From a virus, in the IMG/VR virus record IMGVR_UViG_3300049255_000599, positions 1 to 25,440 of that record: a stretch of DNA of 25,440 nucleotides. The stretch is one strand, 5' to 3'. Below, in pieces: positions 6,397 through 22,024 of this stretch. A model generated the notes under the pieces. That model made no database searches and was not told the DNA's origin. It saw nothing but the letters and a program-made list of their open reading frames with translations. Numbering within the stretch: the stretch's first letter is position 1; the number at the start of each line of letters is the position of its first letter. A program made the position numbers and the translations under genes.

Positions 6397-6798
6397 ATGA
6401 AGCGTTTCATCGGCCTATTGGCAGCACTCTCAGCGCTCGAACTGTCGGTACCTGCAAAGTCAAACTGCACGACATCAGACATAGCAGGAGTATGGGGAGC
6501 CTACATAGGAAGTTATGCCTGCACGGTCACTTTCTATTCCAATGGACAGATATTGCCGGAATATTCTGGTTGCACATATCTGGAGAAAACAGCCGACATA
6601 TTTGGAAGTGTTGTTGTTGAAAACTCAGTATTGTGCCAGTTTACTGGAACATTGGTTACCGAGAGCCCAGTGGCGGGCGGAGCGACAGGGATTGTATTGC
6701 TCACGTTGTCACCTGATAAGTTAACTGCATCAGGAATATGGGGTGTTGAAAATATAAATGCACCCACAACCGCGGTTAGTCTCGTGAGAGTAAAATGA
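6397..6798 (+). CDS. Secreted moron protein of unknown function, 133 aa
   Basis: The gene points against all neighbours and is visibly lower in GC. The product starts MKRFIGLLAALSALELSVPA, a Sec signal peptide probably cut near residues 20-22. The mature part of about 110 residues is beta-rich by eye, with several cysteines (Cys24, then in YACTV, SGCTY and VLCQF) that could form disulfides in the periplasm. GVWGAYIG near the start and SGIWGVENIN near the end look like paired strands of a small beta-barrel of lipocalin-like type; this is only an impression. A taagggg ribosome-binding site precedes the ATG. Position between DUF2460 and DUF2163, reversed orientation and composition are those of a moron expressed from the lysogen. 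I recognise no family. Confidence 0.75.
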   Translation: MKRFIGLLAALSALELSVPAKSNCTTSDIAGVWGAYIGSYACTVTFYSNGQILPEYSGCTYLEKTADIFGSVVVENSVLCQFTGTLVTESPVAGGATGIVLLTLSPDKLTASGIWGVENINAPTTAVSLVRVK

Positions 6799-13562: not shown

Positions 13563-13640
13563 GTCATTCCCGCGAAAGCGGGAACCCACGGGGCCGCTTG
13601 CTCTGGCAGAGGGATGGGTTCCCGCTTTCGCGGGAATGAC
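13563..13640. repeat. Perfect 26-bp inverted repeat element (gtcattcccgcg termini)
   Basis: Arms 13563-13588 and 13615-13640 are exact inverses (26 of 26), separated by 26 bases. Each arm is itself a hairpin (ttcccgc-gaaa-gcgggaa). The element lies between the prohead protease stop (13676) and the capsid start (13405). This cgtcattcccgcgaaagcggg type is widespread in alphaproteobacterial intergenic DNA (general knowledge). Confidence 0.9.
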
Positions 13641-13675: not shown

Positions 13676-14482
13676 TCACCCGTTCGCGAGCTTCTCGATC
13701 TGCTGCAATGTCAGCGGCCGTCTGAGCGCGCGCTTCGTGAGCTCGAGGGGGTCGCGGGTCGGGTGGTCGGCTTCGGTTGGGCCGATGCGGTCGGCGGATT
13801 TGGCGATCGGCGTGGCGCGGAGCGCGGCGCGGCGCTGGGCCGGCAGCTCGGTCAGCGCCTTGCGCAGCGCGTCGCGCTCGGCGATCAGGCCGGCGAGCTT
13901 GGCCTGGGTGTCGTCGGTACCGTTGGCATCGGCATCGTCATCCTGGTCCAGCGGGCAGCCGTCGCACGACGCGCCGAGCGAGACCGCCTGGTCGTGGATG
14001 GCCTGGATCAGCGCCAGGTCGGCGGCGGAGTTGCGGGCGCCGACCTTGCGGATCGGCCCGTCTTCCGCCTTGTACATGGTGAACACGGCCTCGGGGTTGG
14101 CCGGGCGGTCGACCAGGCTGATCTCGGACAGCTTGACGCCGGTGATCACGTGCTTCTGGGCCTGGTCGCGGGAGACGACCTGGCCGCCGATCGAGAAACC
14201 CTTGTAGACGCCGGACGTCACCTTCTCCCAGGCGACCGGGTCGACGATGCGCGCGGCGAGGTAGAGCCCGCGCTCGTCCAGGTCCGCCTCGGTGGCGATT
14301 CCGACGGCCGAGGGCTGGTGCATCTCGCGGATGTTGGCGAAACGCATGTAATCCGGCAGGGCCTTTTCCAGCGCCTCGCGCCGGACGATCTCACCCTGGC
14401 TGTCGAGCGCCTCGGTGGAGGCATAGCCGAACACCATGCGCTGGGATTCATCGATCCTGGTGATCTTGGCGAAGAGTTTCAT
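13676..14482 (-). CDS. Prohead protease (S78-like), probably fused to scaffold tail, 268 aa
   Basis: The N-terminal half has the HK97-type prohead protease pattern: MVFGYASTEALDSQGE, REMHQPSAVG with the likely catalytic His55, VYKGFSIGGQVVSR with Ser97, and LSEISLVDRPANPEAVF (about residues 118-134) with the likely Glu120. The C-terminal part from about 140 on is polar, with an acidic stretch (DQDDDADANGTDD, about 169-181) and a helix (LAGLIAERDALRKAL), suggesting a delta-like scaffolding domain fused to the protease. It matures the capsid. An AAAGGAA site is 6 bases upstream. The first bases of this gene and its ribosome-binding site recur at 15406-15437, outside the cargo island. Confidence 0.9.
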   Translation of the reverse strand: MKLFAKITRIDESQRMVFGYASTEALDSQGEIVRREALEKALPDYMRFANIREMHQPSAVGIATEADLDERGLYLAARIVDPVAWEKVTSGVYKGFSIGGQVVSRDQAQKHVITGVKLSEISLVDRPANPEAVFTMYKAEDGPIRKVGARNSAADLALIQAIHDQAVSLGASCDGCPLDQDDDADANGTDDTQAKLAGLIAERDALRKALTELPAQRRAALRATPIAKSADRIGPTEADHPTRDPLELTKRALRRPLTLQQIEKLANG

Positions 14483-14493
14483 GGGGATTCCTT
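14462..14493. repeat. 32-bp direct repeat, copy 1 (protease start)
   Basis: The copy covers the ribosome-binding site and first seven codons of the prohead protease gene. It matches 15406-15437 in 31 of 32 positions and is in the same orientation. The two copies bracket 912 bases of cargo (14494-15405). Confidence 0.9.
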
Positions 14494-14656
14494 TGTGGGT
14501 AGTGACGGTGTATTATGGCGACGTCGATTTCCTGCTGGACTCCGGGACGGACTAGGACGAGGCTTCGGCGGGGTGTTGAGGATGCTCTTCGACATCGAGG
14601 CGCGGCGGCTGGCCGTTTCCTCCCCGAAACAGGGGTCTTCGATTGATGTACCCATC

Positions 14657-15235
14657 ATGAGTGATGACCCTCAGAAAAGAGCGCGGGAACGCGCCGACGA
14701 ATTCCACATGGCGATGGGGTATTGCATAGCCGAGTGGGCAAATATCGAAGAGCAACTTTTTCGCCTTTGCGAGCTTTGCATAGGAAAACCCGCACAAGCG
14801 GCAATAATATACTACCGAACGCCGGGCTTGCGACCAAGATTAGATCTTGCTGCTGAGCTTATAAGATCAATTATACCAAGATTTAACAACGAAGATAACA
14901 ATAAAAATCATCCAGATTATAAAATCTGGAGCGACATACTTTCGGATATAATTAATAATATTTCCATAAGAAACAGAATAGCGCACTATCCTGTTGAAAC
15001 AAAATACCCAAACTTCTTTGATCTTGATCCTTTTAATCTTATAACCGGAGGGTTGGGCGGGACAAGACATTTCATCGTCGGACACAAAAAGGAAAATCTT
15101 CGTGAAAGATTCTCTGCTAAACCTCCACTGAGTCTATCAGATCTACATAACCACCTTGAAACAACTAAAAATATTGTCTCTAAGTTACAGCAGTTTTACG
15201 ACGCACTTTTAAAGCACGCTCAATCACCTGCCTAG
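14657..15235 (+). CDS. HEPN-like cargo protein of unknown function, 192 aa
   Basis: The gene is on the opposite strand to the whole late operon and is strikingly AT-rich. The N-terminal half is helical: FHMAMGYCIAEWANIEEQLFRLCE (residues 16-39), then PAQAAIIYYRTPGLRPRLDLAAELI. Near residue 105 it reads SIRNRIAHYPV, an R-x4-H motif (Arg105, His110) of the type that forms the catalytic site of HEPN RNases. The C-terminal part (about 115-192) ends in another helix. Two-helix-plus-RNxxAH proteins of this sort are common uncharacterised genes near mobile DNA. ATG 14657 is chosen at the composition change, although no clear ribosome-binding site precedes it; an in-frame ATG at 14582 is an alternative. 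A TATTAT box at 14511-14516 could be its -10. A role in defence or superinfection exclusion is inference. Confidence 0.75.
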   Translation: MSDDPQKRARERADEFHMAMGYCIAEWANIEEQLFRLCELCIGKPAQAAIIYYRTPGLRPRLDLAAELIRSIIPRFNNEDNNKNHPDYKIWSDILSDIINNISIRNRIAHYPVETKYPNFFDLDPFNLITGGLGGTRHFIVGHKKENLRERFSAKPPLSLSDLHNHLETTKNIVSKLQQFYDALLKHAQSPA

Positions 15236-15392
15236 CCCATATTTCTGCTATTCCCGGGGAAAGGTAGGGTATTTCGCAGTCCAACAGAGCATCTGCCCCA
15301 GCAGAAATCATTTCCGCGGTGATTTCAATTTCTTCCAGCGCCGACCTGTCTCCGACATCGCGGCTCAGATGGTTTCGGTCAGTCACGTCCAT
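15180..15392 (-). CDS. Small acidic phage-type protein, 70 aa
   Basis: The product contains LEEIEITAEMISAGADALLD (about residues 19-38) and ends EIWARQVIERALKVRRK. The pattern ITxEMIxAG...VxRAL is one I associate with small conserved proteins scattered in alphaproteobacterial phages, of unknown role. It converges with the HEPN-like gene and overlaps its last 56 bases tail to tail. Its ATG (15390-15392) lies inside a 15-codon open frame that begins at the duplicated protease start (ATG 15424-15426) and stops at TGA 15379-15381. It may thus be translated by coupling from a borrowed start; it also has AAGGG about 7 bases upstream. It could be an antitoxin-like partner, but no DNA-binding motif is visible. 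Confidence 0.6.
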   Translation of the reverse strand: MDVTDRNHLSRDVGDRSALEEIEITAEMISAGADALLDCEIPYLSPGIAEIWARQVIERALKVRRKTAVT

Positions 15393-15426
15393 AATTGGCC
15401 CTTGAGATCTTGGCGAAGAGTTTCAT
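15379..15426 (-). pseudogene. 15-codon leader made from a duplicated protease start
   Basis: The duplicated repeat copy gives ATG-AAA-CTC-TTC-GCC-AAG-ATC, identical to the first seven codons of the prohead protease, then diverges (SRANYGRD) and stops. It overlaps the start of the 70-residue gene in another frame. It is either an inert scar or a translational leader. Confidence 0.55.
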
Positions 15427-15437
15427 GGGGAGTCCTT
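15406..15437. repeat. 32-bp direct repeat, copy 2
   Basis: This is the second copy of the protease-start repeat (31 of 32 identity with 14462-14493), found between the 70-residue gene and the inverted-repeat element behind the portal gene. It marks the right edge of the cargo island. Confidence 0.9.
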
Positions 15438-15443
15438 CGATTT

Positions 15444-15530
15444 GTAGGATGGGTGGAGCAACAGCGATACCCATCGCGGAGGGTGCAAGTGGTTGGAATG
15501 ATGGGTATCGCTTCGCTCCACCCATCCTAC
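15444..15530. repeat. 31/32-bp inverted repeat element (gtaggatgggtgg termini)
   Basis: The left arm 15444-15475 and right arm 15500-15530 are inverse copies differing only near agcaacagc versus agcgaagc. The spacer is 24 bases. The right end lies over the portal stop codon: the TAG of the portal gene (15527-15529) is part of the terminal gtagg of the element. Confidence 0.85.
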
Positions 15531-16894
15531 GATTGAGTTTGAGTGCCGTTCACCACGCTGGCCAAAGTCACCGCGCCGGCGCCGGTGTAGATCAAGGGGG
15601 TGTCGCCGCCCTCGATCGGGTCTTCGCCGGCTTCGGCGCGGGCTTCGTTGATGGTCTTGAGGCCGGATTTGACCTTCAGGTCGGTGATCTGGGCCTGGCG
15701 CAGCAGGTCCGAGGCTTTTTCGTCGATCCATTCGAATTCGAGGTCCGGCCAGCCGAAATCCTCCTCGATCACCTGGTCGACCAGTCCCTTGATCCACAGC
15801 ATCACCGGGCCCAGGCCCTCGGAGAGCGCCATTTCCTGCGCGTTGTCGGCGGTGGCGCGGTTCATCGATTTGGTGAAGGGCGACGGCGAGGTGGAGAAGG
15901 CGTAGCAGACCACGCGCGCCAGCCACTCGTCGAAATCATCCTTGAGCGGCGGCTCCCGCATCGCCTGGTAGCGGAAATCGGCCGGGACGAAGCGGGCGTG
16001 CCGGCGCTCGGCGGTGTTGCCGGTCATCACCGTGTCCCAATAGCGCTGGAACTCGGCGATCTGGTCCATGCTCCAGTTCTGCGGCACGCTGATGATCGCC
16101 TCGGGCACGTTGCCTTCGGTGAAATATTGCAGCTGAGACAGCTGCCGGCGGAGCGCGATGTTGACCGTGGTGATCACCTGCTCCACCGGCGAGAAGCCGT
16201 AGATCTTGGCGGTGCGCGGGTTGCGCGGCAGATAGATCAGCTCGTCGCGCGTGAAATCGGCCTTCGGCACGCCGTGCAGCACCTGCTGATAGGCCGGGTC
16301 CGGCGCCGCCGGCATGCGGCCCTGCTCGTCGATCAGGAGCTTGATCGTGGCGCCGTCAACCGGCTCCAGCGCCTGCAAGGCGCCGCCCTCGCTCCGCGCC
16401 TTGTAGAGGGTCGGCGCATCGATGACGAACAGATCTTCGAGCAGCATGCGCAGCCAGGGGCCCCAGCGATGCACGCCGTCCGGCTTGCGGAAGAAGGATT
16501 CGATCCGGGTCACGCGCGGGTCCGCGGCCGGGTTCAGGCTGCGCGGGCCGGCCTGGATTTTCGGCCTGATGTTCCAGCGCAGGCGCTCGACTTGATCCTT
16601 GCGGGTTTCGATCACCAGGCGCAGCAGATCCCAGCTTTCGGCCAGGCCACGAAGCTGCGCGAAGGAAATGCCTTCCTCGCCGCGCGGCCAATACTGGATA
16701 TTGAGGCCGGAGGCGTAATCGAACCGCCTGGGCTCGGCGAAGGCCGGCGACGCCGGCGGCAAAGGCTGCAGCGGGCCGAACCAATCGCCCGGCGTGACGC
16801 CGCGGATCGCATAACGGACCCCGGCGACCACACGGCCGAGAAAGCTGGGCTGCACGGCCGGCATCAGCGGCGTGATGATTCCTTCAGGCGGCAT
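15527..16894 (-). CDS. Phage portal protein, 455 aa
   Basis: The protein matches HK97-type portal proteins: ISFAQLRGLAESWDLLRLVIETRKDQVERLRWNI (about residues 77-110), MLLEDLFVIDAPTLYK, then TRDELIYLPRNPRTAKIYGFSPVEQVI (about 220-250), IALRRQLSQLQYFTEGNVPEAII, and the C-terminal NRATADNAQE and IKGLVDQVIEEDFGWPDLEFEW segments. It forms the dodecameric ring for DNA packaging and ejection. ATG 16894 was chosen because it overlaps the upstream gene by only 11 bases; an ATG at 16864 is possible. The last codons and stop abut or enter the 15444-15530 inverted repeat, so the natural C-terminus may have been altered. Confidence 0.92.
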   Translation of the reverse strand: MPPEGIITPLMPAVQPSFLGRVVAGVRYAIRGVTPGDWFGPLQPLPPASPAFAEPRRFDYASGLNIQYWPRGEEGISFAQLRGLAESWDLLRLVIETRKDQVERLRWNIRPKIQAGPRSLNPAADPRVTRIESFFRKPDGVHRWGPWLRMLLEDLFVIDAPTLYKARSEGGALQALEPVDGATIKLLIDEQGRMPAAPDPAYQQVLHGVPKADFTRDELIYLPRNPRTAKIYGFSPVEQVITTVNIALRRQLSQLQYFTEGNVPEAIISVPQNWSMDQIAEFQRYWDTVMTGNTAERRHARFVPADFRYQAMREPPLKDDFDEWLARVVCYAFSTSPSPFTKSMNRATADNAQEMALSEGLGPVMLWIKGLVDQVIEEDFGWPDLEFEWIDEKASDLLRQAQITDLKVKSGLKTINEARAEAGEDPIEGGDTPLIYTGAGAVTLASVVNGTQTQS

Positions 16895-17342
16895 CGGGCA
16901 ACCCCACGGCGTTGAAGAAGGAATGGATCTGGATGCGCCGGCCATAGGCGGTGCCGCAGGCGAAGCCGATCAGGTAGCGCGCCGCCGGCGGTTGCCCCAC
17001 GGCCTGGGCGGCGACGGTGCCGACCAGGGTGGCGGGGCCATCCAGCGCGGCCGCGTAACCCGCGACCGGCGCATCGACCGGGAAGAACAGCACGGCGAGG
17101 CTGGCCGGATCGAGCGTGTCGCCGGCATCGAGCGCGGGGCCAAGATCGATCGCGAACACATCGTCCGCCGCGACCGAAAGTGCGGGGAAATCGCGCCCGG
17201 CATAGCCGGAGGGAAACACCGGCTGCAACGTGCGCCACTGGCTGAGCGTCAGGGTGGTGGCGATGAAGCCGCCCAGCCCCTCGAACAGGAAGGAGTCCGG
17301 GCCATTGCTGCCCAGCCCCAGCGTGATCGGCCATCCGGGCAT
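16884..17342 (-). CDS. Small structural (fibre-tail adaptor-like) protein, 152 aa
   Basis: The N-terminus LGLGSNGPDSFLFEGLGGFI is Gly-rich. The middle contains DTLDPASLAVLFFPVDAPVAGY (about residues 75-96), and the end AARYLIGFACGTAYGRRIQIHSFFNAV has the beta-strand pattern of small phage proteins that connect fibres to the particle (D-TLxxAxW..., then Y-I-F-V-T-GR). The likeness to fibre-tail adaptor proteins is only moderate. A GAGGGA site precedes the ATG; the gene follows the fibre-like gene by 10 bases and overlaps the portal start by 11 bases, so it is co-translated with both. The open frame runs to 17396, but the extra residues are Pro/Arg-rich and unlikely. Confidence 0.7.
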   Translation of the reverse strand: MPGWPITLGLGSNGPDSFLFEGLGGFIATTLTLSQWRTLQPVFPSGYAGRDFPALSVAADDVFAIDLGPALDAGDTLDPASLAVLFFPVDAPVAGYAAALDGPATLVGTVAAQAVGQPPAARYLIGFACGTAYGRRIQIHSFFNAVGLPDAA

Positions 17343-18357: not shown

Positions 18358-20643
18358 TCAAGCGTTGACGGTGCGGGAGCGGGAATAACCGGCGGATGGG
18401 GCGGCGCCGGAGAGGGCGGCCTTGCAAAGGCCTGTGTAAGCCGCGCCCAGTCGAGCATGCCCAAAGACCAGCGGATGCACGCCGTCGTAAGTCCATTCGG
18501 TCGAGGCACCGAAGGTCAGCGTGAACACTCCGGAGGGGAACAACGATGTGGCGTCGACCACGTAGGTCTTGCTGTCGCCGCTGGCCGTAACAGCCGCCGC
18601 GAGTTGCGCCTCGTAGCTGGCTTGAGGCGGTACCACGATGAAGATCAGCGTTGCCGAGCCACAAGCGCTTCGCAGGCTGCCGATCATGGTCTGACAGTCC
18701 GCCTGGACGGTCGATCCGCTTACGCTGTTCCTGGCATCATTGCCGCCGTGATGGATGAAGACGTAATCGAAGCCTGAGAGGCTGCGCGACCGCCCGACCG
18801 AATACAGTTCGTAGGCAATCATGAACGGCGCGGCGTTGCTGCCGCCAGTGATCGTCCATCCCTGGCCGCCATAGGCGACCTGCGCGTACTCGGCGTTAAA
18901 CGCCTGGGCCATGATCGGAACCCAACTCTGCGTTGCATCGTCTGAACCGTCCGCGTTGACGTGCTCGCCGGCCGTCATCGAATCGCCGAAATGGATGGAC
19001 CGCTTAGTCCTCAAGGTCGGGGCAGAAACGGAACCGCCGTTATCGACCGTGATGCCGTTGATCCTGAGAACATTAGTCGGGCTGACCCCGCTCGATCCCC
19101 AGACGTCGGCATAGCCGTTGGTCTGAGACGTGGCCTTCAGATAGATTTCAAGCGAATAGATCGTCCCCGTCGACAGTGAAGACGAAATGACGAACGTTGT
19201 GGCGCTGGGCGAAAGCTGAGTATCGACGAAAGTCGCGCCGTTGATCGAATACCGGATCGTCGGCATATCGCCTGAGGGAAACGTGCTATTCGTGCTGTTG
19301 TCGATACCGAGCGACAGGTTGACCGTGCCGGTGACATTGAACTTGAGGTAGGCTCCCGGTGCCGAGGCCTGCATTGTGTCCGTGTCGACGCCGAACGTGC
19401 CGCCGGTCAGATGATCCCAGTTACCCTGAGACCAGAACAGATTGGCGTTGGTGACGTTGAATGTCGTCGACCCGCCTGAACCGGTCGTCGTCATTGTGAG
19501 CTGCGACGATGTCGCCGTATTGCTCGCCGAATCCGTGACGATATTGACGTAGTAATACGTCGTCGACGGCGACAGGCCAGTATCGTTCAGCGTTGTGCTG
19601 GTTGCGCCCGAAACGGCATTTCCGCCACCCGGGGTGAAGCCGCTCGTGGTCGAGCGATACCATTGATAGCTGTAGGGCGACGTGCCACCGCTCGCGCCTG
19701 AATCGATCACCGTTGCCGTCGTGGTGCCGACGCTGCCGATGCTCAGCGTGCCGTTGGCGAGCGACCCGCCGCCGCTGGTGGTAACCGAAAGCTGGGTCGA
19801 GTTCGCGGTCGCGCTGGCCGCGTCGGTCGCGATCAGGATGTAGTAGTAGGTCGTCGACGGGCTGAGGCCCGTGTCGTTCAGGGTCAGCGACGTGGCGCCG
19901 GAGACCAGGTTTCCGCCGCCTGGCGTGAACCCTGGCGTGGTCGACCGGTACCATTGGTAAGAGTAGGGCTGTGTGCCGCCGGTTGCGCCGGTGTTCGTGA
20001 CGGTCGCGGCCGTTCCGGTTATACTGGACGAAGATGATGTCCCAGCGGAAAGTATCGTGTCGCCCAGGCTGACATTGTTGATCGTCGCCGAAGTCGCGCC
20101 GTCGTTGTTATTATAGAACCCGAAATATCCAGCGGCGGTGATCGAGTTGTCGTTGATGGAGCCCGTCCATGCGCTGGGCTCGCTATTCATGAACTGCCAA
20201 ATCTTGAAATAGATCGTCGAGCCCCTGATGCGGGCGCGAACGCTGAACATCGCCCCGGCGCCGATGGTCCCGAGACCTGAGGTGGTGTAAGTGCCAAGGT
20301 TGGTCGAGGATCCGCTTACGATCTTGTAGAGCGCAAATCCGGCGAGCCCGTTGTCATTCGGGATGATGACATAGGCGTTCTGCAGCCCGGAATCGGCCCT
20401 CAGGTAAACGCCGGCGAAGAAATCCTCATAAACGACATCATATCTCACCTCCATGTCCGCAATCGCGGCATTGGCAGTGCAGACAATCTTGATGCCATCC
20501 GAGGCGTTCGAAGCCAGGGCATGGGTTGCGCCGGTCACCGGATTGGCGGCGGTGACGGCCCACGTGCCGCTAACGGCTGTCCAGTTCGCCGGCAGCGTGC
20601 CCACCGTCGTCGACGCGAAATTCTGCGTATAAAGGATCGTCAT
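18358..20643 (-). CDS. Tail fibre with C-terminal SGNH esterase, 761 aa
   Basis: Residues 1-205 look like a concanavalin/LamG-type beta-sandwich (LYTQNFASTTVGTLPANWTAVSG...). Residues about 208-292 and 296-392 are two near-identical fibronectin-like modules, each with YSYQWYRSTT, GFTPGGGN, TTLNDTGLSPSTTYYY. A further beta-domain (about 395-540) precedes an SGNH/GDSL hydrolase: HFGDSMTAGEH with nucleophile Ser555, AYGGQGW, HHGGNDA with Asn635, and DGVHP with Asp720 and His723. Thus all four SGNH blocks are present. By analogy with phage tail deacetylases, it should remove O-acetyl groups from host surface polysaccharide during adsorption. AAGG lies 8 bases upstream. It is next to an O-acyltransferase gene, which may act on the same glycan. 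Confidence 0.88.
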   Translation of the reverse strand: MTILYTQNFASTTVGTLPANWTAVSGTWAVTAANPVTGATHALASNASDGIKIVCTANAAIADMEVRYDVVYEDFFAGVYLRADSGLQNAYVIIPNDNGLAGFALYKIVSGSSTNLGTYTTSGLGTIGAGAMFSVRARIRGSTIYFKIWQFMNSEPSAWTGSINDNSITAAGYFGFYNNNDGATSATINNVSLGDTILSAGTSSSSSITGTAATVTNTGATGGTQPYSYQWYRSTTPGFTPGGGNLVSGATSLTLNDTGLSPSTTYYYILIATDAASATANSTQLSVTTSGGGSLANGTLSIGSVGTTTATVIDSGASGGTSPYSYQWYRSTTSGFTPGGGNAVSGATSTTLNDTGLSPSTTYYYVNIVTDSASNTATSSQLTMTTTGSGGSTTFNVTNANLFWSQGNWDHLTGGTFGVDTDTMQASAPGAYLKFNVTGTVNLSLGIDNSTNSTFPSGDMPTIRYSINGATFVDTQLSPSATTFVISSSLSTGTIYSLEIYLKATSQTNGYADVWGSSGVSPTNVLRINGITVDNGGSVSAPTLRTKRSIHFGDSMTAGEHVNADGSDDATQSWVPIMAQAFNAEYAQVAYGGQGWTITGGSNAAPFMIAYELYSVGRSRSLSGFDYVFIHHGGNDARNSVSGSTVQADCQTMIGSLRSACGSATLIFIVVPPQASYEAQLAAAVTASGDSKTYVVDATSLFPSGVFTLTFGASTEWTYDGVHPLVFGHARLGAAYTGLCKAALSGAAPSAGYSRSRTVNA

Positions 20644-20735
20644 TGCCTAACCTTCTCGACCGTGCAAGATCGGCCGGTGTTTAAGGATTTAGGGCGGCGG
20701 AAATGTTGGGAACATCAACATTGCGCTGATCATAG

Positions 20736-20885
20736 TTGGCCCGTGGGGCGCGCCGTCTTCTGGCGAACAAGGTTGTTCGTCGCTCAGTCGAAAAAGAGAA
20801 AAACGGAGAGCCGTTCCGCAGTCTACTGACTGAGGATCAATGGGCAGCTATAGACCTGAGAGAGTTCGAAGACCGGCAGTATTAA
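20736..20885 (+). CDS. Possible small charged peptide or gene remnant, 49 aa
   Basis: A plus-strand open frame from TTG 20736 to TAA 20883-20885 encodes a highly charged peptide that ends SLLTEDQWAAIDLREFEDRQ plus Tyr. It stops two bases before the convergent acyltransferase stop. There is no convincing ribosome-binding site and I do not recognise it. It may be the 3' end of a gene left behind when the appendage cassette was exchanged. The rest of the 20644-20887 gap shows nothing clear. Confidence 0.25.
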   Translation: MARGARRLLANKVVRRSVEKEKNGEPFRSLLTEDQWAAIDLREFEDRQY

Positions 20886-20887
20886 AT

Positions 20888-21943
20888 TCAGGCGACGACT
20901 GCGGGCTTACGGAACAATTGATCCGCCCATCTCTTTGATGCGTCTCGCGCCGGGCATTCTATCAAGCGATACGTGATCGCCGAAATCCCGATCGCCAGGA
21001 CGATCGAGGCTGCCGCAAAGGTGATCGCCTGCCAGACCGTTCCAATCGCCAGTCTCCGTACCACGAACTGCACAGCCCGCATGATTGGCAGATGCACCAG
21101 ATAGATCGAGAACGACCACTGGCCGAGCCTATAGAGCGGCCCGGAGGCCAAGATACGTGCCGCCAATCCCTCAGATGACGCCAGCGCCATGATCGCGAAA
21201 GGCATCAACCCGACAAGTGTCAGATCGCCGACATCGGCGATCAACGCCATGACAGCGAGCGCTGCGATGACTGCTGGCGCGTGACGGCCAAGCCTGACCG
21301 CCCGCCAGCGATATATCAACATCCCGGTTGAGAACTCGGCAAAGCAACGCACCGTCGGCGAAAGCGTGTTGGCAAGCGTGATATCAAGGCTCCAGTGGTG
21401 CCGAGCCGCAATCGCGATCAGTCCAAAAGCCGCAGCCGCCAAAGTCGCCAGCGGAAGCAAGATTCGCGAAGGCGCCAGCGTCAGCGCCACCACCAAGGGA
21501 AAGGCCAGATTGACCAGCATTTCCGAACTGATCGACCAAGCCGGTCCATTGATCGCATTGAAAAGCGCCGGCACGAAGGGCCAGCGATGTATCAGCGCCA
21601 TCTCTTCGGTGACCTGTATCGGTGAGTAGGGACTCCCGAACCACCACGCCACGCCGACGCAAATGAGCGTCACAACCCAATTAAGTGGCATCATTCTGCC
21701 CGCGCGCTTCGCGATGAAGCGCCAATAGGCATTCTGATCGTACCGGTTGACGAATATTTTTCCGTATGCGTCAGCGAGAACGAAACCACTGAGCAGAAAG
21801 AAGAAATCGACGCCGAGGTATCCACGCGAAAGGAACCCGATCGGGTCGTTGATCGGCCCAGGTGAGAGCACGTTCAGATGATAACCGAGCACCCAAAATG
21901 CGAACAGGCCTCGCAGCGCGGTGAGTGCCTTGATTTCTTTCAT
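20888..21943 (-). CDS. Acyltransferase family 3 membrane protein (OafA/Oac-like), 351 aa
   Basis: This is a multi-spanning inner-membrane O-acyltransferase. The start MKEIKALTALRGLFAFWVLGYHLNVL holds the family motif LRG-A...W-V..YH (His in helix 1), followed by GYLGVDFFFLLSGFVLA (residues about 41-57), the classic second motif, and FIAKRAGRMMPLNW with the RxxR-like block. About ten hydrophobic segments follow, ending in WSFSIYLVHLPI near residue 290 and a basic tail. Such enzymes in prophages (for example Oac of Shigella phages) acetylate O-antigen, changing serotype and blocking related phages. ATG 21943 gives a usual length; the frame also allows a TTG at 22012, but those residues do not look family-like. 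No strong ribosome-binding site is seen. Confidence 0.9.
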   Translation of the reverse strand: MKEIKALTALRGLFAFWVLGYHLNVLSPGPINDPIGFLSRGYLGVDFFFLLSGFVLADAYGKIFVNRYDQNAYWRFIAKRAGRMMPLNWVVTLICVGVAWWFGSPYSPIQVTEEMALIHRWPFVPALFNAINGPAWSISSEMLVNLAFPLVVALTLAPSRILLPLATLAAAAFGLIAIAARHHWSLDITLANTLSPTVRCFAEFSTGMLIYRWRAVRLGRHAPAVIAALAVMALIADVGDLTLVGLMPFAIMALASSEGLAARILASGPLYRLGQWSFSIYLVHLPIMRAVQFVVRRLAIGTVWQAITFAAASIVLAIGISAITYRLIECPARDASKRWADQLFRKPAVVA

Positions 21944-22024
21944 GCGTCGGGCGCCGGGTCCTGAAGGCGGGGTGCGGTTCAGGCTTGTCCCATTTTTCCC
22001 GGCGCACGACAATCATTCCGTGCG

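Follow-up and report, generated by a model that had tools for sequence, protein, structure and literature searches.

Passenger genes as such are known in some subgroups of the IS1595 family of transposons. In the literature searched, no description was found of a link between IS1595 elements and HEPN passengers, or between these elements and a HEPN-like gene with a convergent small gene. HEPN domains are recognized by an RX4-6H motif, a polar residue after the arginine, and a conserved acidic residue (PMC3710099). Tn3-family transposons carry RNase-type toxin-antitoxin passengers, one of which is a HEPN/MNT pair (PMC7157771). We describe here an island, between the portal and protease genes of a virus, that can be traced to an IS1595 element. 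The account that we regard as probable is that a transposon of this family was inserted in codon 9 of the protease gene, that the junction was later rejoined to an intact protease start, and that a trio of passenger genes with HEPN-type cargo was thereby stranded.

The window, i.e., the stretch of DNA analysed, is the whole virus record of 25,440 bases, and the features of the junction are summarized in Table 1. The original prediction was built on a 32-bp direct repeat (14462-14493 and 15406-15437), and the repeat holds up, with 31 of 32 positions identical and a best match of 20/32 in dinucleotide-preserving shuffles. It spans the protease ribosome-binding site and the codons for MKLFAKI, as was claimed, and the flanking genes are indeed those of the portal and the protease. 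The homology extends 5 nt past the boundary first drawn (ATC TCA AG versus ATC ACC AG), giving 34/37, and then ends; the two extended copies are termed copy A, next to the portal gene, and copy B. The low-GC plus-strand gene and the convergent small gene said to occupy the 912 nt between the repeat copies are both present, while a third ORF, the basic gene on the minus strand, had been missed. GC drops to ~39% across the plus-strand ORF, whose start may lie further upstream, at the in-frame ATG of 14582, and the small gene shares 56 nt with it, the 3' ends overlapping. The small and basic genes lie on the strand of the head operon, and the HEPN-like gene is antisense to the operon. The basic gene runs with its 3' end into copy B, and its stop codon is the TGA of the ATGA at the protease start.

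We also note three features elsewhere in the window. A 26-bp perfect palindrome arm pair (GTCATTCCCGCGAAAGCGGGAACCCA) is situated between the protease and capsid genes (13563-13640), and a second low-GC opposite-strand ORF, encoding 133 aa with an apparent signal peptide, is found within the tail operon (6397-6798, plus strand). The terminase-to-portal interval (18358-22012, minus strand) contains an apparent acyltransferase (20888-22012) and a large SGNH-hydrolase-like protein (18358-20643), which are possible surface-modifying cargo.

Table 1. Features of the portal-protease junction, in window coordinates
Feature	Position	Strand	Basis
Portal gene	15527-16945	-	PF04860 E=2e-17, phrog_2662 E=5e-77; C-terminus compared with relatives
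Palindromic element (REP/MITE-like), 88 bp	15443-15530		Inverted arms 15444-15459/15515-15530; AATC at 15531-15534 and 15439-15442
Copy A: protease ribosome-binding site and codons 1-9, disrupted	15401-15437	-	34/37 versus copy B; continuous with portal end as in relatives
IS1595-type terminal inverted repeat, GGCCAATTATGGACGTGACTGACC	15377-15400	-	Top hit in window by two matrices
Small gene, 70 aa, EITPEMI family; convergent with and overlapping HEPN-like gene	15180-15392	-	Profile family at this position
HEPN-like gene, 192 aa, RNRIAH motif R105-H110	14657-15235	+	Invariant R105/H110; AlphaFold2 model all-helical
Basic TPPKP-type passenger gene	14479-14658	-	Profile of four family members, E=0.0019, expected place
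Copy B: intact protease ribosome-binding site and codons 1-9	14457-14493	-	Start of 268-aa protease ORF
Intact head-maturation protease gene	13676-14482	-	PF04586 E=8e-7; 72-78% identical to 26 relatives

The 88-bp palindrome between the portal gene and copy A, about which the original prediction was silent, supplies the present stop codon of the portal gene, TAG, and by comparison with the portal C-termini of relatives it is evidently this insertion that removed the last portal codons. When the palindrome and one AATC are removed in silico, the portal frame ends in ...TQTQSKDSP and a stop codon, with ATGA over copy A. The portal of an empty relative, L015, ends in ...STQSKGTP and a stop codon, and its junction reads CAATCGAAAGGAACCCCATGA. 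Since the removal restores the 4-base overlap of portal and protease as in L015, copy A is, judged by this alignment, the original protease start in its ancestral position. Copy A ceases to resemble the protease in codon 9, at the very base with which the IS1595 terminal repeat begins, which marks copy A as the disrupted original. The 32-bp repeat is a pair of a disrupted start and a replacement start, and not a target duplication. A long target duplication, one of two origins that had been suggested, is ruled out by the position of the terminal repeat in copy A and by the 8-bp duplications of IS1595 elements.

With the protease as query, viral contigs yielded 80 loci and genomes 17. Alignment with island-free relatives reveals the single protease start that had been anticipated for them: in ten close relatives the portal stop and the protease start overlap by the 4 bases ATGA, and in three others the gap between the genes is 4 nt, giving empty sites in 13 close relatives. 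In the remaining close relatives the two genes are separated by 32 to 831 nt, and a second protease start is absent from all of these spacers. The basic, HEPN-like and small genes were not found as a trio in the related phage loci, which rules out vertically inherited cargo; together with the empty sites, this bears out the view that the island is foreign to the junction.

Whole elements with the same genes were found outside the related phages. Searches with one sequence at a time failed to detect the HEPN-like or the small protein in phages and viral contigs, or the HEPN-like protein in plasmids, and profiles were needed. Genomes sampled from the class of one Rhodospirillales relative gave two matches, both in one genome; the first adjoins an IS1595 transposase, and in the second, the genes for both proteins converge close to a fragment of an IS1595 transposase. 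A profile search of 385 genomes (E up to 0.01) gave matches to the HEPN-like protein in 21; a few at the weak end are clearly other proteins, e.g., response regulators. Wider flanks of eleven loci show a transposase upstream of the HEPN-like gene and on the same strand, and the transposase of the related elements is of the PF12762/PF12760 type. A transposase profile search of viral contigs revealed a HEPN-like ORF in 34 of the best 80 loci; the 80 are those closest to transposases for which a link with HEPN-like genes had been established before, and the proportion is not a frequency for the IS1595 family as a whole.

Forty-five loci contain the transposase and the HEPN-like gene on one strand. 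In 22 of them, inverted repeats of 17-20/20 bracket both genes and are accompanied by exact 8/8 target duplications. The script selects the best pair near the genes and has some freedom in placing the ends; two lower-scoring pairs, which look like chance, were left out of the 22. As the inverted repeats share one consensus that was not imposed, chance is an unlikely explanation for the bracketed elements. Their internal order is transposase, basic TPPKP gene on the opposite strand, HEPN-like gene, and small gene on the opposite strand, the last overlapping the 3' end of the HEPN-like gene by 38-179 nt. The small-gene profile matches 27 of 86 convergent ORFs versus 1 of 3982 other ORFs; a convergent small gene is present in 27 of 56 HEPN-like loci, and in 13 of the 42 non-seed loci. 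The HEPN-like and small genes thus show the conserved two-gene linkage by which toxin-antitoxin systems are recognized. With the basic-gene profile, an ORF is detected at the 5' end of the HEPN-like gene in roughly 30 loci, in addition to the window.

The slot next to the basic TPPKP gene may hold other genes. By eye, HNH-type and GIY-YIG-type nuclease-like ORFs are located there in L177 (4634-5440) and L189 (3250-3804), respectively, with no Pfam hit, and other HEPN-like proteins, with weak DUF4145 and MtlR hits, occupy the slot in two further loci. In a phage (L107:2974-3189, L108:1642-1857), an EITPEMI-family small gene, for which no HEPN-like partner was detected, lies just upstream of a small-terminase-subunit-like gene.

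A matrix made from the first terminal repeats scores 20.7 at the terminal repeat abutting copy A and at most 8.5 elsewhere in the window. A second matrix, made from the repeats of the bracketed elements, gives 17.4 at the same place, with 11.5 as the next best score in the window and 16.1 as the peak of 40 shuffles; no locus in 793 kb of related phage DNA reaches 17.4, the nearest being L073 with 17.2. The repeat falls at the weak end of the matrix range and has one extra C, and its place, immediately before the small gene, is that seen in whole elements. Neither matrix found a far-end terminal repeat near copy B, and none of the ORFs of the island encodes a transposase. The island is not an intact IS1595 element, having one terminal repeat only and neither a PF12762 transposase nor an 8-bp target duplication. 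It has the features of a remnant, namely a terminal repeat beside the small gene and the order basic (-), HEPN-like (+), small (-). The insertion cannot be proved from both ends because the second terminal repeat and the target duplication are gone.

The portal-protease junction is an insertion hotspot, in which relatives carry palindromes or opposite-strand genes. Palindromic REP/MITE-like repeats of several unrelated kinds occupy it in relatives (L010, L012/L013, L014/L017, L020/L021/L023, and L030). Opposite-strand ORFs are present in L005/L031 (455 nt), L008 (831 nt), and L011 (285 nt), and by eye these encode a signal-peptide protein, a protein with a PEP-CTERM-like ending, and a small ORF product, respectively. 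Other cargo between the same repeats, which had been suggested as a thing to look for, was not found, as none of the other insertions in relatives carries the repeat. Such a hotspot, with its palindromes and the opposite-strand genes of L005/L031 and L008, would suit a cassette that phages exchange by recombination at the start of the protease gene, or else a mobile element whose target duplication is 32 bp long; on either view the IS1595 link would be old and irrelevant. This reading is very improbable, however, because the split phage codon and the IS1595 terminal repeat are still directly adjacent, the trio occurs in no related phage and the repeat in none of the other insertions, and IS1595 elements make 8-bp duplications.

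In the IS1595 account, the ancestor would have had a compact junction in which the portal stop overlapped the protease start (ATGA). An IS1595-family transposon bearing a transposase and three passenger genes would then have entered codon 9 of the protease gene with its small-gene end toward the portal; a full-length element at this junction would be expected to have the 8-bp duplication ATCTCAAG beyond its second terminal repeat. The intact protease that starts from copy B, the missing transposase and second terminal repeat, and the basic gene that reads into copy B point to a second event, in which an intact junction became attached to the inside of the element. Illegitimate recombination is the most likely way in which copy B was joined. 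It would have connected the element, at its basic-gene end, to the intact portal-protease junction of a second copy of this phage genome or of a close one (a co-resident prophage, a co-infecting phage or a concatemer); we infer this donor, and likewise the order of the steps. The transposase and the far inverted repeat would have been lost and a complete protease gene regained, and the passenger trio would have been left stranded and immobilised as cargo. In a separate third step, the 88-bp palindrome would have entered the last portal codons.

The original prediction that the insertion regenerated the 5' end of the protease gene is correct in that an intact 5' end stands beside a broken one, but the intact start would have arrived with the later joining event and not with the insertion itself. 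Recombination between modules, the other suggested origin, comes closer than the long target duplication, though for the joining step only, the insertion itself being attributed to the IS1595 transposon. Except for the details of the second step, the history of the site is well supported. The identity ranks of portal and protease against relatives, which do not differ, give no sign of a donor of copy B. In scans of viral contigs for the exact junctions, from which the window's own record may be excluded, the joint was seen in no second record, so that it may be an assembly error.

Two starts could also arise within one genome, by a partial tandem duplication of the protease start, after which the transposon would have hit the spare copy harmlessly and later lost its transposase end by deletion. 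No second genome is needed for this, the copies are 34/37 identical, and the portal and protease rank the relatives alike by identity, with no discordance in what is a donor test of low power. This course of events is nevertheless unlikely. A duplicated protease start, with or without cargo, was absent from the loci of 96 relatives, where the best second copy in a frame of 12 nt upstream plus 25 nt of coding sequence is 23/37, against 33/37 in the window; a cargo-free duplication, which would also have spoken against recent insertion, was accordingly found in 0 of 96. In addition, likeness to the portal end upstream of copy B extends over at most about five codons (TKESP and the stop), so that the duplicated unit would have been very short.

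The cargo protein is most likely an RNase of the HEPN superfamily, as judged from its conserved residues and predicted structure. Two alignments, of 22 and of 26 diverse relatives, show no variation at R105 and H110; the arginine is mostly followed by N, and an acidic residue upstream of the motif, E31, is conserved at 90% or more. RNRIAH agrees with the HEPN pattern RX4-6H in which N, D or H follows R. The AlphaFold2 model built from 26 sequences is all helical (mean pLDDT 82, pTM 0.76), and the RX4H motif ends the helix 86-110. For the four-helix HEPN fold, in which the motif closes helix 3, a fold comparison is suggestive at most: the HEPN entries 7ae9, 2hsb, 8pe3, 6m6u, 3o10, and 4nqf were among the top rows with Z of 6.5-7.7, below the bar set for helical bundles, and Foldseek against the PDB gave nothing significant for the model, with no hit below E 0.6. 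Neither the HEPN-like nor the small protein scored above the curated cut-offs of Pfam, PHROGs, NCBIfam and PADLOC. Within the wider HEPN-like family, single members show weak hits to HEPN_RiboL-PSP and HEPN_Cthe2314, and the PDB sequence profile shows a weak hit to a CRISPR DxTHG-family protein (E=0.2). RNase activity is what we infer from the invariant RX4H and the AlphaFold2 model. For the small protein, AlphaFold2 predicts two helices (pTM 0.35).

A toxin or defence role of the HEPN-like protein is hypothetical. Our working guess, a tentative one, is that an RNase and its small partner form a system of the toxin-antitoxin or abortive-infection kind, or that the RNase regulates the transposon. 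It is a real possibility, if short of an even one, that the trio is decayed and functionless transposon debris in which the HEPN-like gene is silent: a promoter scan upstream of this gene gave no excess over shuffles, the transposase has been lost, and the trio is absent from all related phages. Against this, every reading frame is open and the RX4H motif is intact.

Beyond this locus, we consider it nearly an even matter whether many IS1595 transposons, in viral contigs and bacterial genomes, carry, as an integral module for addiction, defence or self-regulation, a conserved antisense-nested cassette of a divergent basic gene, a HEPN-type RNase gene and a convergent small gene, in which other nuclease-like genes may stand in for the central one, and which phages may capture without the transposase. 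The wider result is the linkage of the HEPN-like and small genes with IS1595 elements, whose possible role as a toxin-antitoxin, defence or transposition-control module is open to direct test. The island itself suggests a concrete route to immobile cargo, in which a late operon survives a transposon hit in an essential gene and keeps the cargo.

The island shares with the IS1595 family (PF12762/PF12760, ISXO2-like) the type of terminal repeat at one end and the passenger genes in the same order. In contrast to complete members, it is a truncated remnant that has lost the transposase, the second terminal repeat and the target duplication. Like the HEPN RNases (HepT/MntA, Csm6/Csx1, AbiV, and others), the cargo protein has the invariant RX4H, the polar residue after the arginine, the acidic residue, and an all-helical model in which the motif ends a long helix. 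Nevertheless, no known HEPN family recognizes it above cut-off, and its partner is a small convergent gene rather than a nucleotidyltransferase. With the toxin-antitoxin passengers of Tn3 transposons it has in common that a HEPN-type protein with a small partner is a recurrent passenger of a DDE transposon; here, however, the element is IS1595, the partner is convergent and overlapping and not in one operon, and toxicity is hypothetical. Like phage morons, the island places a low-GC opposite-strand gene within the head operon, at a junction where relatives carry others. It differs from them in that its origin can be traced to a transposon inserted in an essential gene.
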